Virus record (IMG/VR): IMGVR_UViG_3300037635_005233 | Span: 1 to 34,897 of that record | Direction: 5' to 3' (one strand) | From: a virus | DNA: 34,897 nt | Part shown: piece by piece, positions 6,782-31,263 of the stretch | How the letters are laid out: the number at the start of each line of letters is the position of its first letter | Numbering within the stretch: position 1 is the stretch's first letter | Position numbers and translations under genes: made by a program | The notes under the pieces: model-generated | What the model was told of the DNA's origin: nothing | The model's database searches: none | The model's input: only the letters and a program-made list of their open reading frames with translations

Positions 6782-9700
6782 TTAAATTATTCTCATTATA
6801 TAATATAATGCATAATATGGAGGTAAGTTTTTGTTAACTCCATTGTTACCACTCACACCTGCATGAGCAGTGTCACCACCATGATTATGTCCACCAGCAT
6901 CTTGGGAACTTGCTGTATGAGCATGACTTGCTTGTGCAGATATTTGCTCGGTCGGGATCGTTACTGAAGAAGTTACCGTATGGTCATGCGCTGGAACGGT
7001 ACCGCTTCCTGAGAACGTATGACTGTGAGACCCGCTGCTCCCTGTTTCTTTGGTTTCGTGTCCATCATTAGTATCGGGTTCACTAGTATTTGATGGTCGT
7101 TCACTCCTTGTGCCTTTTTCATAACTATGCTTGTGACTTCCACCTTGACTTGATGCTCCTTGAAAATCTATCTGCTCGGCCGCTTTAGTAGCTACCTGTA
7201 CACTAACACTACTATTGGTGTGCGTGTGCGGATGATCATGACTTGCATTGTCACCTGCCACCTGCACTGGATGATCGTGCGCTTCGACGCCTGTAATTTG
7301 GTGATTATGATGTATAAGTTGAATATCTTTCGATCCACCCTCTCTCAGGGTATTAGTTGTTACATTTGATCCAGTATTAGAAGATGATCCAATTACAAAT
7401 TTGTTTGTAAGATTTGGCACATTAAATGTATTACCAGATTCACCATAAGTATTGCTAATAATTGCATATAAAGAACTATATGTTGATTTAGATAATGATC
7501 GTCCGTCACATAATACCCAATTTGTAACAATAGATCCATTAACAGTTCCCGTAGGAAGATTACTAGATGTTCCTGCCCACAGAACTATACCACCAATAGG
7601 AGTTATATTAGGAATTTCAAGATAGTTTGCACGAATTGTTCCACTTCTATCACCAGGAGGAACATTAGTTCCTTGTCCTCTAACTTCTAAATCTCCAAGA
7701 ATCTTTGTAGTTTCATTAATATTGACCTCATCACCGGAACCAGCATTTAAGGAAATATCACCATTATTAGCAGTTAAAGTTACGGTAGTACCAGCAGTTG
7801 CAGTAATAGCACCAGCAGTTGCAGTTAAGGTAGCATTGTTGCCAGCAGTTGCAGTAATATTATCACTTGATCCAGATGATGTAAGTGTTAAATCTCCATG
7901 AGCAGTAGATAAATCAAGACCTGTAGCACCATTTCTTGTATCAATTGTATTGCTATTTGTGTCACCAATTTTAACATCGCCAATAAATGCTTTACTAAAT
8001 GCTTTTTCAGATGTGCCAATATAAGAACCACCTTCTCCATCTTCATCTTTGAAATCAAATTGAGGAACAATTCCAGTATTAAGTTGTACTTGCCCAGTTA
8101 CTACAAGTGTTCCTTTAATGTATGAATTTCCTCCGACACCTATACCACCTTTAAACACTGCAGATCCAGTATTTTCATTAAGAGCACCACTAGCAAATGT
8201 AACTCTAAGTTGTCCATTTAATGTTGTTTTACCTTTAACTCTCAGTTGACGTGTCATTGTGACAGGTCCATCAAATTGTGATAGAACAAATCCAGATGTT
8301 CCACCCTCAACAATAATTCTTTCCCTAACAGTTACTTCATCAAAGGCAACACTCAATTTTGAGGGATCTTGTCCTGTTATTGTTGGTTTTGGAATATCAT
8401 AAGAAATTGTTTCACCAGAAGCAGCGGATACTTTTGTATTACCATTGTAAGTATCACCACTACTATTCATACCAGTGTAAACAACAGCACCTCCAGATCT
8501 TTCTTGTGCTTGTACGAGGAAATCTTCCCTCTCACTTAGAGTTTTAATTTGAACTTGAGGTAATGCAGTCGAATAGTTGCCAGGACCATAACCAAGATAT
8601 TCAAATGTATGTGCAGAAGCTCTACAAATACTTGGTCTTCTAAATTCAACTGGAACAGTTTTTATTTTCTTAAATAAATCACCAGCTTTATGATTACCTT
8701 GCCTTGTTCCGAGATAACCTCTCGAAACTATTGCAGTTCCAGATGCATTATTACTAGGACTATTAACTTCTCCACTGATTCTAAAAACTTCATCATTGAT
8801 TTGAATGAAATCTCCAAGATTAAGTCTCTTATTAATAAACTCACCACTTAAACATGTAAATGATATTGATGATGTATTTCCTGCAGAATAATCAGATGTA
8901 AGTTTAAAATAATCGCCATCGTAGAATGGAATGCCACGAGAAGCATAACTTTCAGTTCTAATATCTGAAATTCCTTCATTAGATGAAAGTCCATGCTTTA
9001 AAATATATCCATTACTTACAGATACAGGTATATTTTCCTTTGCTCTCACATTAAATTGTATTGGGGATTTTACATCTTGAACAATGTAGTCTCCAGCACT
9101 ATTATTTGAAGAATCTATAACTCTAAACTGATTTCCCACAGATAAACCATGACTTTCCTTAGTTGTGAAAGTCACAATACCAACAGATACTGCGGTTTCT
9201 CCATCAATGATTGTTTGACTAACCCCAAATACTGTATTATCAATTTCAACTGAAGGTCCTACTACAAATGCATATCTGTTGTCATTTCCTTGTAATGATG
9301 AATCTCCAACAGTTCTTGCAATTCCAATTGACTTTTCTCCAACACTAGTAATTCTGTGATAAGAATCGGATATTTCCCCATCACCAATTATCTGTATAAC
9401 GTCTCCAATATATGTCGTAATGCCAACAGTACTTAAAGTTAAGAATGCATTACTTTCACCACCAATAATAGTAATATCTGGATATAGTTTCTCATCATTA
9501 AGATGTCCAGATCCCCCTTCTTGAATTAAAATTTCAGTTACTGGATTAGTAAGTCCACCACCAGAAACTGTTACTCTTCCTGTTGCACCTTTCCAATATT
9601 CTTCTGATTGAGATGGGTGTGTAAAAAGTTTTACATTGTAATAAACACCATCATTATGACCACTTCCGCCAGTTAAAGTTCCTCCTACAGCACTACCTAA

Positions 9701-12700
9701 TCCATGAGGAAGTTCAAAATTAAGAGTTGGAGTATTGGATGTAGGATTTGCAATTGAAGAAATTTCTAATCCAATATTAAAATCTTTACAAAAAATATCT
9801 ACGGTTTCTTTAGTAATACTTTTCTTAAGATTATTTGTTACAACATCTCCAATTGGAGATCTTTTAGCAAAAGTCTTAGCAGAAAGTGGATTTGTGTTAT
9901 AATTATCTCTATCAAATTGGGGATAAAGATCTACAGGTGTTTGTGTAAATTTATTATCAGAGAATATACCCGGCAATTCATTTGCAGCATTTAAAATGTA
10001 CAAATGGTAAATGCCATCCTTTTCATCTTTAATATAATCTGAAATAACATCATTTCTGTAAATATAAAGATTTGATTTAATATTATTTCTTTCAAATACA
10101 GGAAGTTCACTTACCGTTCTAGTGAAAGGTTGAATAGTACCCGGATTATGTGTAACACCAGCAATATCGGATTGGTTTACAAAGAAAGTATATTCATCGA
10201 AAATACTTTCAACTGTAAATGATCCATTAAATCCTATATTAAATTGTCCAGTAGTTGCTTCATTACTATCTTTAATTTTTCTTACTATAACGATGTCATT
10301 TATCGATAGTCCATGTGGACTTTCAGATGTGTATTTAAATTGACTTGCAAGTTTTTCTGCTGTTTTGATGAATCTAGAATTTCTATTATATTTTGTATTT
10401 GATAATGACAATTCTGTTCTAGATCCTACATTAAAAGGAATATCATTATCAGTTAAAGCATCAGTAGATTTAGACTCTTGCATTATAAATCCAATCTCAG
10501 GATTTTTGGCGTTATCAGATTCTTTAGGTATAACTACTCTTATCTTATAAGTCTTTTCATCAAGTGATCTTTCATCAGCAACTCTACTAACATATGCTAA
10601 ATCTGTAGATTCTGAATATTTTGTGTCGTCTGTTGGATCATATCCTATTCCACTGTCCAAAAATGAATTATAAATTTCATTATTATTTCCAACATTAATA
10701 TACCATTGACTATTAGTCTCATCCCATACTAATGGAGATCCAACATCTCCCGCATTTTTGTCAGATACTCTACTTTTAATTATTAAATCTCCTCCAAGAC
10801 TTCCACCATAAGATGGTACTCCTTCACCTAAAAATGCATAAGTATAAGAAGCTGCTAATTTTATATATTCAGAACTTTGCAATCCATCTGGATTGCTAAC
10901 TGCATTATAAGTATCTGTTGATTGTGTAATTGCAAAATAAACCTGGTGCTCAACTAAATTTTCAGGAAGATCGCCTTTTTTACTGTTGATAATTATTCTT
11001 TCGCCAGTAGAAAGATTATTAGTGCCAATGAAAAAATGATTATCATTGATAATATTAGTTACAGAGTATTCTTTAGAATGCCTATCTTGTTGATTTGAGA
11101 TAGAATTGTTACCCATCATGTAAATAGGTGCAGAATATTCTATACCTGAATGTCTTAAATATAATAAATCATTTTCTTTTGCGCCTATTCTAAATCCCTG
11201 CGTAAGAGACACTGGAACAGCACTTTCTGAAGTAAATCCATATAAGTAAAGTTTATTACTGTCGGCAACAGTTCTAGTTTTAACAACATCTAACGATAAC
11301 CATTCAATTTCATCTTCTATAGATATGTCTATTGATCTTGGACCAATAATACCTGTAACATATCCATGATCATCTTTATCAAATGATGTATTTTTAAATC
11401 CATCAGACTTTAATGAAATTTGTCCAAAGTTTGAGTTTGAGTTTGTAATTGAAGCATCAGCTCCAGAATTCATATCAAAATGATATGTAAATCCAATAGC
11501 AAAAACCGAAACAGCTTGAATGAATGAATCATTAGACACTTTGATGTGACTGCTTTCCCAATTTGGTCTATAGATTGCATCTTGATCTAAGTGATAAACT
11601 TTATTACTACTTGGAGAAGAGGCTCCTGCTGGTAAGGATCCTCCATGAACTTCAGTATACTGTAGAGAATCATAAGTTCTCGTTTGTTTATTATATTTTG
11701 CGAATGCACGATCATCCTTTTGAAGTGATACTGCCGTAAATTGAGCCACCACCATGGATTTGAATCCAGAACATTTGGATCCATCAGCGTGCATTCCATT
11801 CATACCCCAAACAGAACGAAGTGAGATATTGAAAATATATGGTGATGCACCAGCAACGGTGTCAGTCTCTACCGTGGCAGAAGCATTATCAAGAGCAGGT
11901 GATGCCGAAAGATTGATCGGAATTTTTTCCAATAAATACGTAAACTTCGTATCGCTAATAATATCTTGAACAAATGTGGATACATTATATGTACTACTAT
12001 CAGTAGTTAATTGATTATTTCCTACAGTTCTACCAATACCACGTATTCTAATTGGAGTTCCAGAATTTAATTCATGTGGAGTTGTAGTTGTTACGGTAAT
12101 ACGAGCACTTGGTACAGTTCCATTTCCAGATATTACATTATCAATTATAATTGGATCAGCTCTAAATGCACCGACAATTTCCCATTCTGGTGCTTTTTTA
12201 GAAAAAGATGTTGAAGAATTTGGAAATTTTGAGGAGTTTTCAATCTCTCTATAAGAATTGTATGCATTACCAACCTTATGATAATACATATCAAGATCAG
12301 TTAATTCTCCATAAGCACTTCTATTGATAGGAGTGACACCATCACAAAATTCAAAACAAGTTAATTTGTGATGACTAAATCTTGGAGTTGATCTATATTC
12401 TTCTGTGAAATTTCTTGGATTAGTATAAACCTCACTGTCGTCTTGTCCATCAAAAATAGAAAACTGCCAAAAATAACATGCACCAGTAATTCTAAATATC
12501 GCACTTCCTGGAGTATTTTCGTAGGTTGCCGTTGGGTTAGGAATATACTTTGGTCTTAACTTTGTTTTTCTTAAGTCAAGTCCAACAATAGATGTTCCTC
12601 TAGGAACAATAACACCACCATGAATACTATTAAACTTATAAAGAATATTATCTTCTTGTGTTAGATCAAAGTTGCTGTCAAGTTCAAGATTTAGTGTTGT

Positions 12701-13027
12701 TATTGCAGAAGTTCCTACACCTCCAGATGGAGGAACGGCTTTTGCAACACCATTATTGTTATATATTGCAATTCCAGGTCTATTATCAATTATATGTTCT
12801 CCTGGAAATAAGAGAATAGTAGTTTTTTCAGTAATATCATTATTACTACCACGAAGATATGAAAATCTTGCTGCTTCTATTAATGCTCTTTGTACCGTTT
12901 TGAATGGTTGAGCAAGAGAATTTCCTTCATTTGTTATCGAATCAGTAGAATCAAGATCACTTGGATTTACATAGAGGATTCTACCCTCGGTATTTTTGAT
13001 AAAATTATCTAACTTATTTAATGGCAT
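6782..13027 (-). CDS. giant tail fibre with tail-collar domain and His-rich tip (2081 aa)
   Basis: The largest gene here. The N-terminus (GRILYVNPSDLDSTDS, then AQPFKTVQRALIEAARF) is the start of a pectate-lyase-type beta-helix module, seen again in the 1202-aa fibre. A very long, repeat-poor beta-rich body follows, with GGSGHNDGVYYNV-type motifs common in marine phage structural proteins. Near 1680-1780 are short Ala/Thr/Asn repeats (TATAGNNATLTATAGAITA). Residues about 1804-1880 match a phage tail-collar domain (PIGGIVLWAGTSS, WVLCDGR, FNVPNLTNKFVIG). The last 180 residues are packed with His (AHDHP, SHDHPHTHT, GSHSHTFSG), ending LPPYYALYYIMRII, as in the metal-binding tip of T4 gp12. It is probably the short-tail-fibre equivalent or a receptor-binding fibre. 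A perfect TATAAATA lies upstream. Size is far above T4 gp12 (about 530 aa). Confidence 0.85.
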   Translation of the reverse strand: MPLNKLDNFIKNTEGRILYVNPSDLDSTDSITNEGNSLAQPFKTVQRALIEAARFSYLRGSNNDITEKTTILLFPGEHIIDNRPGIAIYNNNGVAKAVPPSGGVGTSAITTLNLELDSNFDLTQEDNILYKFNSIHGGVIVPRGTSIVGLDLRKTKLRPKYIPNPTATYENTPGSAIFRITGACYFWQFSIFDGQDDSEVYTNPRNFTEEYRSTPRFSHHKLTCFEFCDGVTPINRSAYGELTDLDMYYHKVGNAYNSYREIENSSKFPNSSTSFSKKAPEWEIVGAFRADPIIIDNVISGNGTVPSARITVTTTTPHELNSGTPIRIRGIGRTVGNNQLTTDSSTYNVSTFVQDIISDTKFTYLLEKIPINLSASPALDNASATVETDTVAGASPYIFNISLRSVWGMNGMHADGSKCSGFKSMVVAQFTAVSLQKDDRAFAKYNKQTRTYDSLQYTEVHGGSLPAGASSPSSNKVYHLDQDAIYRPNWESSHIKVSNDSFIQAVSVFAIGFTYHFDMNSGADASITNSNSNFGQISLKSDGFKNTSFDKDDHGYVTGIIGPRSIDISIEDEIEWLSLDVVKTRTVADSNKLYLYGFTSESAVPVSLTQGFRIGAKENDLLYLRHSGIEYSAPIYMMGNNSISNQQDRHSKEYSVTNIINDNHFFIGTNNLSTGERIIINSKKGDLPENLVEHQVYFAITQSTDTYNAVSNPDGLQSSEYIKLAASYTYAFLGEGVPSYGGSLGGDLIIKSRVSDKNAGDVGSPLVWDETNSQWYINVGNNNEIYNSFLDSGIGYDPTDDTKYSESTDLAYVSRVADERSLDEKTYKIRVVIPKESDNAKNPEIGFIMQESKSTDALTDNDIPFNVGSRTELSLSNTKYNRNSRFIKTAEKLASQFKYTSESPHGLSINDIVIVRKIKDSNEATTGQFNIGFNGSFTVESIFDEYTFFVNQSDIAGVTHNPGTIQPFTRTVSELPVFERNNIKSNLYIYRNDVISDYIKDEKDGIYHLYILNAANELPGIFSDNKFTQTPVDLYPQFDRDNYNTNPLSAKTFAKRSPIGDVVTNNLKKSITKETVDIFCKDFNIGLEISSIANPTSNTPTLNFELPHGLGSAVGGTLTGGSGHNDGVYYNVKLFTHPSQSEEYWKGATGRVTVSGGGLTNPVTEILIQEGGSGHLNDEKLYPDITIIGGESNAFLTLSTVGITTYIGDVIQIIGDGEISDSYHRITSVGEKSIGIARTVGDSSLQGNDNRYAFVVGPSVEIDNTVFGVSQTIIDGETAVSVGIVTFTTKESHGLSVGNQFRVIDSSNNSAGDYIVQDVKSPIQFNVRAKENIPVSVSNGYILKHGLSSNEGISDIRTESYASRGIPFYDGDYFKLTSDYSAGNTSSISFTCLSGEFINKRLNLGDFIQINDEVFRISGEVNSPSNNASGTAIVSRGYLGTRQGNHKAGDLFKKIKTVPVEFRRPSICRASAHTFEYLGYGPGNYSTALPQVQIKTLSEREDFLVQAQERSGGAVVYTGMNSSGDTYNGNTKVSAASGETISYDIPKPTITGQDPSKLSVAFDEVTVRERIIVEGGTSGFVLSQFDGPVTMTRQLRVKGKTTLNGQLRVTFASGALNENTGSAVFKGGIGVGGNSYIKGTLVVTGQVQLNTGIVPQFDFKDEDGEGGSYIGTSEKAFSKAFIGDVKIGDTNSNTIDTRNGATGLDLSTAHGDLTLTSSGSSDNITATAGNNATLTATAGAITATAGTTVTLTANNGDISLNAGSGDEVNINETTKILGDLEVRGQGTNVPPGDRSGTIRANYLEIPNITPIGGIVLWAGTSSNLPTGTVNGSIVTNWVLCDGRSLSKSTYSSLYAIISNTYGESGNTFNVPNLTNKFVIGSSSNTGSNVTTNTLREGGSKDIQLIHHNHQITGVEAHDHPVQVAGDNASHDHPHTHTNSSVSVQVATKAAEQIDFQGASSQGGSHKHSYEKGTRSERPSNTSEPDTNDGHETKETGSSGSHSHTFSGSGTVPAHDHTVTSSVTIPTEQISAQASHAHTASSQDAGGHNHGGDTAHAGVSGNNGVNKNLPPYYALYYIMRII

Positions 13028-13974: not shown

Positions 13975-14003
13975 AGTATAGCACACTGTTCTGCTGGTGT
14001 CAA
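13975..14003 (-). promoter_or_regulatory. consensus sigma70 promoter of the tRNA/antitoxin cassette
   Basis: Minus strand: perfect TTGACA (14003-13998), 17-nt spacer, TATACT (13980-13975; 5/6). The -35 overlaps the stop codon of the beta-propeller gene. The expected start site is about 17-20 nt before the ATG of the 63-aa gene. It is the best host-type promoter in the window. Confidence 0.8.
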
Positions 14004-15538
14004 TAGTTTGAGAGATTGTAAGAACGAAATACTGCATTGCCGCTCTGTGCATTGTCATTAATTGATATGGATGCAATCATTTTTTCATTATATTCTCTCA
14101 TTCTTCTTCTACTTGATGATGTGTAAAATGGAATGGAAACAGAAGTTATGGGAGTGCTGTTTATAGAAGATAATGAGAATGCAGTAGATAATGAATATTG
14201 ATATACATTATTATCATGATTGTATGTATTTAAAATATTTCCATCTCTAGAAAACCAGAATGAATATATATCCCCAGCATCAAATCTTGCCAGATAAGTA
14301 AGGTCGTCACCGGGGTCATATGCGGTACCATCCAGTTCGTACTCATATATGTAACCTCCAAAAGTAAATGTAACCGTCATGTCAGTATTATTGCTATATG
14401 AGGTAGGTCCACTTACATAGGTAAGACCTTCTGCTTGAGTATAGTAATCATCATATTGATCACCTTGAACAAACTCTGGAAAGTTATTTAAATAAACATA
14501 ATCTAATATCTTTATTCTACCTGTGATAAGAAATTTAGTAGTTCCAGATCCACTAGATATTGTTACTTCTCCTGGATGATTACCACTATCTCGACCATTA
14601 AATGCATCTCCAAATGAACGCATATCTATATACATTTTTGTTGCATTAGATAAATTCGTACTATTAAATCGTACAATGCTTTTGGTACCTGTTAATCCTG
14701 GAAATGATCCTCCTCCAGTATAAGGATCATTAGTTTCAGTACTATAAGAACAAAGTGCTGCATCACTTCCACCACCTTGCCTATCAGTATAACTTACTGG
14801 ACTAGAATAAAAATAAACTTTAGTTCCGTCATCATTCCATGAACAATCAATACCATTATTATCAGGAACTGAGAACCCTGGATTGTTCTGATTAAAATAC
14901 CAATGTCTAGACGAATTGGCTAAATTGTCTATATTCCAACTATTACCACTCCATCTGAATACAGAGAATCCATAATACCCGTACCATGAGGGGGGAGTAT
15001 TTTTAAACACCTTACCACAACCCAATAACTCTTCTCCATCTCTAGACCAAGACAAGGAAATTGGTTGTGGAACATACTTATTACCGCCAGGAACTTTCGG
15101 CCAATAAGTTGCATATTGTCCTTGTGAAGATGTAGATCTAAAATTTGCCAGATGAGAAAGATCTGCGCCTTTTAATGAGTCATAACCGATTCCGAATATC
15201 CCCATTTTACCACATATAGCAATGTCTTTTCCAGTATAACCAAAGTCTGCGCCGTGAACACCAAAACTATCAAAGGCATTTGGATATGAAAATGCCAATG
15301 TTGTACTACTTGTATGCCCAGTCCAAAGAAAATTTCTATAATCTCCTCGGTATTTTTCCTTTATTACATTATCTTCTGCTCTATAAACTCCAGATATTGC
15401 AGCTCTAATTTTAGGATCAGTTCTATCACCAATTTTTCCCAAAACACCAGATGGAGATCTTTCTAATTTCTGTATACCAACCTTAGCAGTTCTATCTGAT
15501 AAAGTATTTCCAGGATTTCCTAAAAGACCAATTCTCAT
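14000..15538 (-). CDS. beta-propeller-like tail/adhesin protein (512 aa)
   Basis: A 512-aa protein rich in Ser, Asn, Tyr, Gly and Asp. It has repeats of the type W-S/N-x-D-G-x-x-L/V: SLSWSRDGEELLGCG, DCSWNDDGTKVYFYSS and FWFSRDGNILNTYNHDNNVY, each followed by strands. This is how WD40/YVTN-type beta-propeller blades look, so a propeller covering about 140-490 is likely. The N-terminus (MRIGLLGNPGNTLSDRT) is typical of a phage particle-binding segment. No signal peptide. It overlaps the 120-aa gene by 4 nt and belongs to the fibre block, so a role as a fibre tip, adhesin or decoration protein is inferred. The propeller call is from pattern only. Confidence 0.65.
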   Translation of the reverse strand: MRIGLLGNPGNTLSDRTAKVGIQKLERSPSGVLGKIGDRTDPKIRAAISGVYRAEDNVIKEKYRGDYRNFLWTGHTSSTTLAFSYPNAFDSFGVHGADFGYTGKDIAICGKMGIFGIGYDSLKGADLSHLANFRSTSSQGQYATYWPKVPGGNKYVPQPISLSWSRDGEELLGCGKVFKNTPPSWYGYYGFSVFRWSGNSWNIDNLANSSRHWYFNQNNPGFSVPDNNGIDCSWNDDGTKVYFYSSPVSYTDRQGGGSDAALCSYSTETNDPYTGGGSFPGLTGTKSIVRFNSTNLSNATKMYIDMRSFGDAFNGRDSGNHPGEVTISSGSGTTKFLITGRIKILDYVYLNNFPEFVQGDQYDDYYTQAEGLTYVSGPTSYSNNTDMTVTFTFGGYIYEYELDGTAYDPGDDLTYLARFDAGDIYSFWFSRDGNILNTYNHDNNVYQYSLSTAFSLSSINSTPITSVSIPFYTSSSRRRMREYNEKMIASISINDNAQSGNAVFRSYNLSNY

Positions 15539-28734: not shown

Positions 28735-30378
28735 TTACACTACCACGTTATATGAATGTAGAGAATATAATGTATAAAAATTTTCTGGATTTGAAGATGT
28801 AATAATAGGAATATCTGTCATACTATCATCAGATTGTATGCTTACCGACGTTGGACTAGAGGATTGAGAAGTATTTGTAATAATTATTGGTTTTGATTTT
28901 GGCAATCTGGCAACAGGATCTTTCATTATCCTAGATTCTGGATTTGGATTAATAATTGGTGCTTCTGTTACGGAAACTGGTTCATTTGGAGTTGAACTTA
29001 TGGTTGGTGCTTCTTGCGAACTATTTGAAGTATTTGTTAAATTAGAAGATGGTTGAACATTTGCAGATTTTGCTTTTGGTATAATATCGCCCCAATCATG
29101 ACCTTGCTGATTTGCATGTTCTCTAAATAATATCTGTTTTTCTGGAGATAAGTTATTAAATTCACCTCTAATTTTACCTTTAGCAAACGGTAAATTACGC
29201 TGATTCCATGCCTTATTATATAATTTAAGTTCTTCTTCACTTAAGGATTTTTGAGTAGTAGGTTCCACATTATTATAATTTTCATTACTAGGATTTTGAT
29301 TACTCTCAGATTCTTCAATAGTTACATTTGTACTCGGTTTATTGGACTCTACACCAGTATTTTGTTCTGTAGTAGTTGGTGAAGTAGTAGTATTATTTGT
29401 AGATTCTTCAGTTTCTTTAGGTTTTTCATCAATAAGACCAACTCCAATTAAATCGAGTAATTGCTCTGCATTATAAACTAAACCTGCCAACCTTGCGATT
29501 CTTCCTAAAGGTGTTAAAGAAACTGCACCTATTATAGCCTCAGTATAGTTTCCTTCTGCTGCCTCAAGACCAATACCAAGAGCAGTTAAAACTCCTCCAA
29601 TGAAACCAGGACCTTTAGGCACATTTCCTGTGCGCCCTCCACCCCTAGGAATATTTTTAGTAGCAGCAGCACCTTGCAATAAGTTTTTCAATGATCGAAA
29701 TGGTTTTCCAATTAATACACTACCAATAACTTTTGAAACTGATACTATACTATTAACTATAGTACCTATACCACCTTTAAGAAGTAAAAGTACATTTATT
29801 GCATTTCTAATTCCTTCTAGAAGTTTATTTTTTATCTTTGTAACTAAATCTGCATTACCCTTACTCTGAGATTCAATTAACTCACCAACATTTGAAATTA
29901 ACCATCCACCAAATAAGTATAATAATGATTGCCCTATTCTATCAAACAATCCCGAAGTTTTTCTTGTAATTGGTTGTGCAGCAATAGAAAAAGAGCGATT
30001 TATTTTTTCCTCAATATCTCTTTCCTGACCACTTCTTAGTCCTTGTTCAGCAAGCAATCTATCTTGATTTTGCTGAGATAAAAGAATATTTTGATCATTC
30101 GTAATATCATTTTGCAATAAAACTGAAATATTTTGTAATCCAGAATTTAATAATAAAACATTACGTCTTACTTCATCAAGACCTACTTGCAATCCTACAA
30201 GATTTTGTTGGTTTTGTTGTGTTAATTGTAATGTTTGTACATCCGTTACGGTTGGTTGGGGAGCCACCATTACTGTTGGAGAATTAACTCCACTAAAAAC
30301 ATTTCCACTACCTGCAATAGTTTGTCTAGATTCTTGTGATAGTGGAGATGTTGTCAGTGGGGTTACTTTAGGTGCCAT
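28735..30378 (-). CDS. baseplate hub / tape-measure-like protein (547 aa)
   Basis: The N-terminal third (about 45-130) is Gln/Leu/Asn-rich and should form a coiled coil (QTLQLTQQNQQNLVGLQVGL, LLSQQNQDRLLAEQGLRSGQ). A hydrophobic stretch LFDRIGQSLLYLFGGWLISN (144-163) resembles that in the 670-aa neighbour. A Gly/Ala-rich, membrane-compatible middle (about 195-310) follows. The rest is low-complexity Ser/Thr/Asn/Pro with one compact helical piece (LYNKAWNQRNLPFAKGKIRG). Coiled coil plus hydrophobic segments is typical of tape-measure and hub assembly proteins, and T4 gp29 has nearly this size (590 aa, from memory). It overlaps the end of gp51 by 11 nt. The gp29 equivalence is inferred, not shown by a motif. 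Confidence 0.6.
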   Translation of the reverse strand: MAPKVTPLTTSPLSQESRQTIAGSGNVFSGVNSPTVMVAPQPTVTDVQTLQLTQQNQQNLVGLQVGLDEVRRNVLLLNSGLQNISVLLQNDITNDQNILLSQQNQDRLLAEQGLRSGQERDIEEKINRSFSIAAQPITRKTSGLFDRIGQSLLYLFGGWLISNVGELIESQSKGNADLVTKIKNKLLEGIRNAINVLLLLKGGIGTIVNSIVSVSKVIGSVLIGKPFRSLKNLLQGAAATKNIPRGGGRTGNVPKGPGFIGGVLTALGIGLEAAEGNYTEAIIGAVSLTPLGRIARLAGLVYNAEQLLDLIGVGLIDEKPKETEESTNNTTTSPTTTEQNTGVESNKPSTNVTIEESESNQNPSNENYNNVEPTTQKSLSEEELKLYNKAWNQRNLPFAKGKIRGEFNNLSPEKQILFREHANQQGHDWGDIIPKAKSANVQPSSNLTNTSNSSQEAPTISSTPNEPVSVTEAPIINPNPESRIMKDPVARLPKSKPIIITNTSQSSSPTSVSIQSDDSMTDIPIITSSNPENFYTLYSLHSYNVVV

Positions 30379-30541
30379 TACTGTTCTTTAGATTTTCTTC
30401 TTCAATATATTGTTGGAGAAGAGTAACATAAACCTCTCTTTCCCAAGGAATCATATTTTCTAACTCTGTTAATGAGTATTTATGATGTTGCATCAATGCA
30501 AATGTCATTTTATAATATGACGCAAGACTTTCATGCGTCAT
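30368..30541 (-). CDS. 51: gp51-like baseplate hub assembly protein (57 aa)
   Basis: A 57-aa helical protein: MTHESLASYYKMTFALMQHH, then KYSLTELENMIPWEREVYVT, then LLQQYIEEEN. The pattern (short helix, SLTELENMIPWER, LLQQYIEEE) is what I know from gp51 of T4-type phages and from the C-terminal part of frameshifted tail assembly chaperones. The ATG at 30541 lies 2 nt after the gp26 stop, has no Shine-Dalgarno, and sits inside a perfect 9-bp hairpin, so independent initiation looks poor. The frame continues open upstream, so that a -1 frameshift at the end of gp26 would enter it. The product would be needed for hub assembly and not be part of the virion. Confidence 0.8.
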   Translation of the reverse strand: MTHESLASYYKMTFALMQHHKYSLTELENMIPWEREVYVTLLQQYIEEENLKNSNGT

Positions 30542-30556
30542 AGCTAGGCGAAAAAA
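30516..30556 (-). other. putative -1 programmed ribosomal frameshift signal (gp26 to gp51)
   Basis: Minus strand, in gp26 frame: slippery heptamer T-TTT-TTC (30556-30550), spacer of 7 nt (30549-30543) holding GCC and the TAG stop, then a perfect 9-bp stem TATGACGCA / TGCGTCATA (30542-30534 and 30524-30516) with a 9-nt loop. Slipping back one base leads through CGC-CTA-GCT into the ATG of gp51, giving a fusion of about 298 aa (238 + 3 + 57). All three parts of a classical signal are present with canonical spacing. Confidence 0.75.
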
Positions 30557-31263
30557 GACGAAAGTCCCTCCATTACAATCTCACTCTCAACACCAGTGTT
30601 TGGATTTTTTACTGGAATTGTATGACGGAGTTTTGGCATGGTATCAAAAAATCTTTCAATCTCTTTGAATTGCTTTGAACTAAGTTGCTCAATAAAATCT
30701 TTAAGTTCTTTCTTAGTACAATCTTTTGAAGACCAAGATTCTTCTTCATTATAAACTTGATCAATACAAGAACAAATAATATCAAATGTATCATCGACGG
30801 ATACGCCATCATTAGAAGCAAAATTACCTTTGATGAACTCATTCATTGAAGGATATCTCATCCTTATAGTTAAGTCATCATCTAATTTTATATCTTTATT
30901 ATGATCCTTACTTATCTCAACTCGAATATCATCTAAATTGATACCTACAGGAACTTGTGTTTTTCCATCGTCGGGACATGTAATAAGAACATCTACGGAT
31001 TCTCCAACAGATTTTCCTCTAACGTTTAAAAACAAATATTCAATATCAAAAGTTGCCAAGTTATCAACCTTTACCCCTCTCGTAATAATACAATTTGAAA
31101 TGACATCTCTGACTGCATTGGAGATTTGTTTTGGATCTTCACTCTCCATAGCAATAATTAATATTTTCTCTTCTTTAACAAGAAATGGCCTGTATTTAAT
31201 CTTCTTCTTCAAAGATGGAAGTTCCAACTCATATGTTGGGGTAGACACTTTTGGCAAAGGCAT
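30544..31263 (-). CDS. 26: gp26-like baseplate hub assembly protein (T4_baseplate family)
   Basis: A 239-aa protein with the family-typical start MPLPKVSTPTYELELPSLKK, then KIKYRPFLVKEEKILIIAME. Next come a helical segment, a beta section (GESVDVLITCPDDGKTQVPV) and a C-terminal helical half with CSCIDQVYNEEESWSSKDCT and FIEQLSSKQFKEIERFFDTM, ending MEGLSSFFA. T4 gp26 is about 208 aa and acts in hub formation; the family is thought to act like a tail assembly chaperone. It follows the gp54-like gene behind a TCTAAATA element. Its last codons carry a slippery run that could fuse it to gp51. Confidence 0.8.
   Translation of the reverse strand: MPLPKVSTPTYELELPSLKKKIKYRPFLVKEEKILIIAMESEDPKQISNAVRDVISNCIITRGVKVDNLATFDIEYLFLNVRGKSVGESVDVLITCPDDGKTQVPVGINLDDIRVEISKDHNKDIKLDDDLTIRMRYPSMNEFIKGNFASNDGVSVDDTFDIICSCIDQVYNEEESWSSKDCTKKELKDFIEQLSSKQFKEIERFFDTMPKLRHTIPVKNPNTGVESEIVMEGLSSFFA

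Follow-up and report, generated by a model that had tools for sequence, protein, structure and literature searches.

The slippery heptamer of the phage lambda tail assembly chaperone genes G and GT is GGGAAAG, which differs from the TTTTTTC described here. Lambda makes a short protein and, by a -1 frameshift near the end of the frame, a long form (Xu, Hendrix & Duda 2004), an arrangement like that of the present locus; its G/GT helpers are absent from the virion and have the tape measure protein as their client, for which the present locus offers a candidate by position. In Pseudomonas phage Adele and other Vandenendeviridae, phage families other than the one considered here, the tail assembly chaperone (TAC) locus has a conserved -1 frameshift at the end of TAC-N, with the T-rich slip motif GTTTTT (PMC12846349). 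In T4, gp51 is needed for assembly and absent from the particle, and both gp26 and gp51 are among the listed hub assembly chaperones (PMC3004832).

The DNA analyzed here is a viral stretch of 34,897 nucleotides (IMG/VR record IMGVR_UViG_3300037635_005233; hereafter, the window). A sequence-only reading of it had proposed that a -1 frameshift signal fuses gp26 to gp51, making the T4-type proteins the counterpart of G/GT. We consider it highly probable that this locus of a marine T4-like phage encodes TAC-N and, by -1 frameshifting, TAC-NC, which form a tail assembly chaperone pair of the lambda G/GT type. A 2022 paper by Vladimirov, Gautam and Davidson (Virology 566:9-15; pmid 34826709) reportedly mentions in its abstract both genes 26 and 51 of T4 and a frameshift that several T4-like groups conserve. 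Passages citing that paper credit it with poly-T signals for a -1 shift in the TAC-N gene of such phages (PMC12846349) and with the alternative of a short plus a long gene (PMC10274946); as represented there, its T4-like TACs belong to the gene family of the window and use the same two solutions. The sequence-only reading knew of no such signal for the T4-type pair, but the frameshifted chaperone pair in T4-like phages was already reported in 2022, and the window adds another case. In the literature searched, which took in the 2022 paper through its citations, no description was found of a covarying stem or of frequently missing gp51 start codons.

Slip site at the gp26-gp51 junction

Read directly on the minus strand, the junction is ...GGA CTT TCG TCT TTT TTC GCC TAG CT ATG ACG CAT... 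It contains or adjoins the following features.

30544 to 31263, minus strand: gp26 (TAC-N, the short form), 239 aa, from translation, Pfam PF12322 and phrog_150
30550 to 30556, minus strand: slippery heptamer T TTT TTC in the gp26 frame, from sequence, conservation and fixed wobble bases
30543 to 30549, minus strand: 7-nt spacer containing the gp26 stop, from sequence
30516 to 30542, minus strand: stem-loop, a probable clade-specific stimulator, from z-score and compensatory changes
30368 to 30556, minus strand: -1 frame extension from the slip site ("gp51" domain, TAC-C), from the open frame, phrog_634 and phrog_150
28735 to 30378, minus strand: 547-aa gene directly downstream, from open reading frame and translation

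The gp26 protein matched PF12322 (T4_baseplate, E = 1.5e-77) in Pfam and the baseplate hub family phrog_150 (E = 2.8e-82) in PHROGs. Its frame ends at a TAG (30546-30544, minus strand), upstream of which TTTTTTC (30556-30550) stands in the X XXY YYZ register with the gp26 zero frame; here the sequence-only reading was correct to the base. Across the whole AT-rich window, the bare heptamer is not unusual (19 found against 20.4 expected), and because this frequency is at chance level, the case depends on comparison across relatives. A search of Rfam at the junction gave no credible match.

Conservation of the heptamer at this junction, named as support in the earlier reading, proved almost complete. 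All of the first 80 viral contigs (73 to 100% protein identity to the window gp26) carried it. After further scans and the addition of isolates, the comparison set comprised 298 loci with 275 distinct junctions, 274 of which had an in-frame T TTT TT(C/T/G). Carriers include cyanophages, Pelagibacter phage Mosig, Sinorhizobium phiN3, Rhizobium RHph_Y68, Citrobacter Ci1, Aeromonas CC2, Delftia PhiW-14, and Vibrio QD01, together with six additional isolates (S-PM2, Milchi, Yut2, S13, OLIVR6, and S-SRM01). The sole heptamer-less relative is Vibrio phage D528, which has one PF12322 copy. At its junction (1880-2100 of the locus), D528 reads TCA CTT TTC AAG TAA TG, the gp51 ATG overlapping the gp26 stop; stop-start coupling may have replaced the frameshift in this phage, or its long form may have disappeared.

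The wobble positions of the slip site are also constrained. All 274/274 junctions use TTT for the first Phe, and TTT makes up 43 to 94% of codons at the other conserved Phe columns; its second codon is TTC in 258, TTT in 15, and TTG in 1, the last base of the heptamer being C, T, and G, respectively. The residue encoded just before the slip-site Phe varies (Ser, Asp, Ala, Asn, or Gly), and yet its codon ends in T in 274/274 (AGT, TCT, GAT, GCT, AAT, or GGT), compared with 88% at the best other Ser/Ala/Asp/Asn column. The relatives share ancestry, and the 274-junction counts are therefore of non-independent events; given protein identity as low as 22 to 30% among carriers, shared ancestry alone explains the fixed wobble bases poorly. 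Judged from these codons, selection at the slip site appears to act on the nucleotides, beyond the protein alone.

The distance from heptamer to stop is 3 nt in 243 of the 274 junctions. In 16 junctions, from Pelagibacter phage Mosig (1890-1935 of its locus) and its relatives, the zero frame does not stop until 24 nt beyond the heptamer, and the short form of these phages would therefore bear a tail of extra residues.

Reading frame and stem-loop downstream of the slip site

In the window, the -1 frame reads FF-RLA-MTHESLASYYK... and first stops at a TAA (30370-30368); it is thus open through R-L-A into the gp51 ATG, as had been claimed. The predicted fusion is 298 aa long (calculated from relative L004, which does not differ from the window in gp26 or at the junction), in agreement with the earlier estimate of about 298 aa. 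The extension matches phrog_634 (E = 1.8e-27) and columns 231 to 278 of phrog_150. Among relatives, the same frame is open in 271/271 untruncated junctions, with no stop between slip site and gp51, and the extension measures 58 to 71 residues counted from the slip site.

Public records handle this region unevenly. The conserved extension is unannotated in those of phages ACG-2014b, Syn10, CC2, and S13 (L083, L084, L089, and L304). The 282 columns of phrog_150 take in the gp51 domain, and phrog_634 has 54 columns of the gp26 end; the two families overlap because some members have been annotated as the short form and others as the long form or the C-terminal piece.

A stem of 9 bp, UAUGACGCA/UGCGUCAUA (30542-30534 with 30524-30516), closing a loop of 9 nt, begins 7 nt beyond the heptamer, a distance within the 5 to 9 nt expected of a stimulatory structure; spacer, stem, and loop are as the sequence-only reading had described them. 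The minimum free energy is -13.0 kcal/mol (z = -3.1), and 0/200 shuffled sequences were equally good. Within the clade of the window, z was below -2 in 143/187 junctions (median, -3.23), whereas the medians of control windows were 0 to -0.6. Junctions of more distant clades had a median z of -1.07, so the stem is not general; since it is unconserved outside the clade of the window, it is inessential to the system.

Across 60 distinct sequences, 92% of the alignment cells in the stem are paired, and sliding one arm lowers this to 20 to 50%. At pair 21-35, 31 of these sequences have G-C and 27 have U-A; its first base is a wobble position, and changes in its second give an Ala/Glu replacement. 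A tree requires at least 16 changes in one of these columns and at least 11 in the other, in that order; agreement among supported independent pairs is 4:0 (p = 0.125), so that the tree test of this compensatory pair is suggestive and not significant alone. Compensatory changes, which the earlier reading had named as possible support, back the stem in the clade of the window and not in distant clades.

Relation to T4-type gp26 and gp51

PF12322 spans the window gp26, T2 gp26 (residues 1 to 206), and T2 gp51 (residues 1 to 201). By hhalign, the short form resembles T4-type gp26 (probability, 97.9; E = 3.4e-13). A profile of the fusion matched T2 gp26 up to column 238, which is the slip site, and matched T2 gp51 across the slip site to column 283 of 299; the extension, profiled by itself, matched residues 200 to 246 of T2 gp51 (E = 1.7e-8). 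The gp26 alignment matched the single T2 gp51 sequence weakly and in part (probability, 9.5; E = 0.0034), and it is therefore Pfam, PHROGs, and the profile of the fusion that establish the membership of T2 gp51.

Copy number follows the layout of the locus. Among 20 complete genomes, a single PF12322 gene is present in 17 and a pair in 3 (T2, Acinetobacter AbTZA1, and Aeromonas SW69-9, with the genes on opposite strands). Sixteen of the 17 single-copy genomes have the T-run slip site, D528 being the exception; aside from it, one copy is found where the frameshift layout is present and two where it is absent. In T4 and T2, gp26 resembles the short form and gp51 the long form, but these are two separate, divergently transcribed genes with neither heptamer nor frameshift. 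At the slip-site equivalent in T2 gp26, Phe-Phe is kept and is written TTC TTT. T-even-type gp51 already includes both domains, and by these sequence relationships the T-even-type phages have the same short and long proteins, encoded by two paralogous genes. Both the frameshift signal and the likeness to G/GT put forward in the sequence-only reading are well supported, with the correction that T4-type gp26 and gp51 proper are encoded unshifted.

Proposed decoding of the junction and role in tail assembly

We propose that most ribosomes would end at the gp26 TAG and yield the 239-aa short form (TAC-N). A minority would pause at the stem-loop 7 nt downstream of the slip site and slip by -1 while Phe tRNAs in the P and A sites occupy T TTT TTC, bypassing the stop and reading 60 residues in the -1 frame to give the 298-aa long form (TAC-NC). 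From the sequence we infer both that slippage occurs and that it has such a rate. By likeness to lambda, the two forms would serve as chaperones, acting jointly on the tape measure protein or the hub protein while the tail is built and departing afterward.

Translational coupling would produce a different outcome: ribosomes stop at TAG and reinitiate at the ATG 2 nt downstream, making a free 57-aa gp51 and no fusion. An ATG just after the stop is indeed present in the window and many relatives, gp51 is annotated as a separate gene in databases, and D528 has its TAATG overlap without a heptamer. The start codons themselves tell against it. The window ATG (30541-30539) lies within the 5' stem arm and has no Shine-Dalgarno sequence in front, both as the sequence-only reading had noted, and it is similarly buried in the stem across the clade of the window. 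No ATG, GTG, or TTG occurs within the first nine -1-frame codons of 86/274 junctions, about a third of relatives and mostly outside that clade, and a Shine-Dalgarno-like motif precedes only 1 of the 188 early gp51 starts (187/188 are without one). Reinitiation also leaves unexplained the invariant heptamer and the single-ORF long form of T-even-type phages. We regard it as improbable for the locus; an independent gp51 made in this way is rejected for most lineages by the missing starts and may apply to D528. Because starts are missing in 86/274 junctions and Shine-Dalgarno motifs are nearly absent, the conserved product is taken to be the fusion. From these sequences, "gp51" in these phages appears to be the C-terminal domain of a frameshift product rather than a free-standing gene, and the earlier description of it as a second gene that is sometimes fused does not fit the third or so of relatives with no start codon there. 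In the clade of the window the ATG would be incidental or optional, and it may be used as a start as well. The first ~200 residues are missing from cyanophage gp51 (PMC3037559), a shortfall that is explained if marine gp51 is this C-terminal domain.

Transcriptional slippage on the T6 run, by which some mRNAs would have joined frames and no ribosomal frameshifting would be needed, is a very improbable alternative to ribosomal slippage. What is conserved is indeed six T in a row, extended to seven in 15 relatives. Six T are short for polymerase slippage, however; the run ends in C in 258/274 junctions instead of being lengthened, and a stem at 7-nt spacing with compensatory changes suits a ribosomal stimulator. 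Chance occurrence of a poly-T heptamer beside an overlapping frame in an AT-rich genome, for which the expected heptamer count over the whole window would speak, has a negligible probability and is ruled out by conservation in place in 274/275 junctions, with fixed wobble bases, among phages of very different hosts.

The frameshift reading places a chaperone gene immediately before a possible client. The start of the 547-aa gene overlaps the end of gp51 by 11 nt; no match of note was found for it in Pfam, PHROG, or NCBIfam, and from its position only it is a candidate tape measure protein. Its neighbors are the chaperone gene on one side and an M23/SLT domain protein on the other. The S-PM2 gene at the same position encodes 1167 aa (record 151356-154859). 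Elsewhere on the minus strand, the tail region of the window contains a 2081-aa open reading frame (6782-13027), and a 512-aa open reading frame (14000-15538) without a PHROG match at E 0.001 lies beside tail-fibre-like genes.

A PDB sequence search with the chaperone locus found no relative. The predicted model of gp26 has a mean pLDDT of 85; in Foldseek comparison with the PDB it had no match with E <1, and the top probabilities (0.54 each, E >1) went to 2ob9, the HK97 tail assembly chaperone, and 3fgx. The model may thus hint at a fold like that of the HK97 protein. Compared with viral models, it matched many T4-like baseplate hub proteins and, lower down, a gp51-type protein of Acinetobacter phage ZZ1.

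We lean toward a history in which (i) the T6 slip site is old and near-universal; (ii) the stem is a stimulator of the clade of the window, in which a synonymous base tracks an amino acid change so that the pairing is preserved; and (iii) the start-less gp51 of about a third of relatives is not a separate protein. According to several hundred sequences, the marine 26/51 pair would be one frameshifted chaperone gene, and the T-even-type phages would hold its products as two genes. Beyond the general point made in 2022, the comparison adds breadth, a stem that covaries, and the absence of many gp51 start codons. For marine T4-like phages, this reading would correct annotations throughout the group, in which gp51 is labeled a separate hub assembly catalyst or is omitted.
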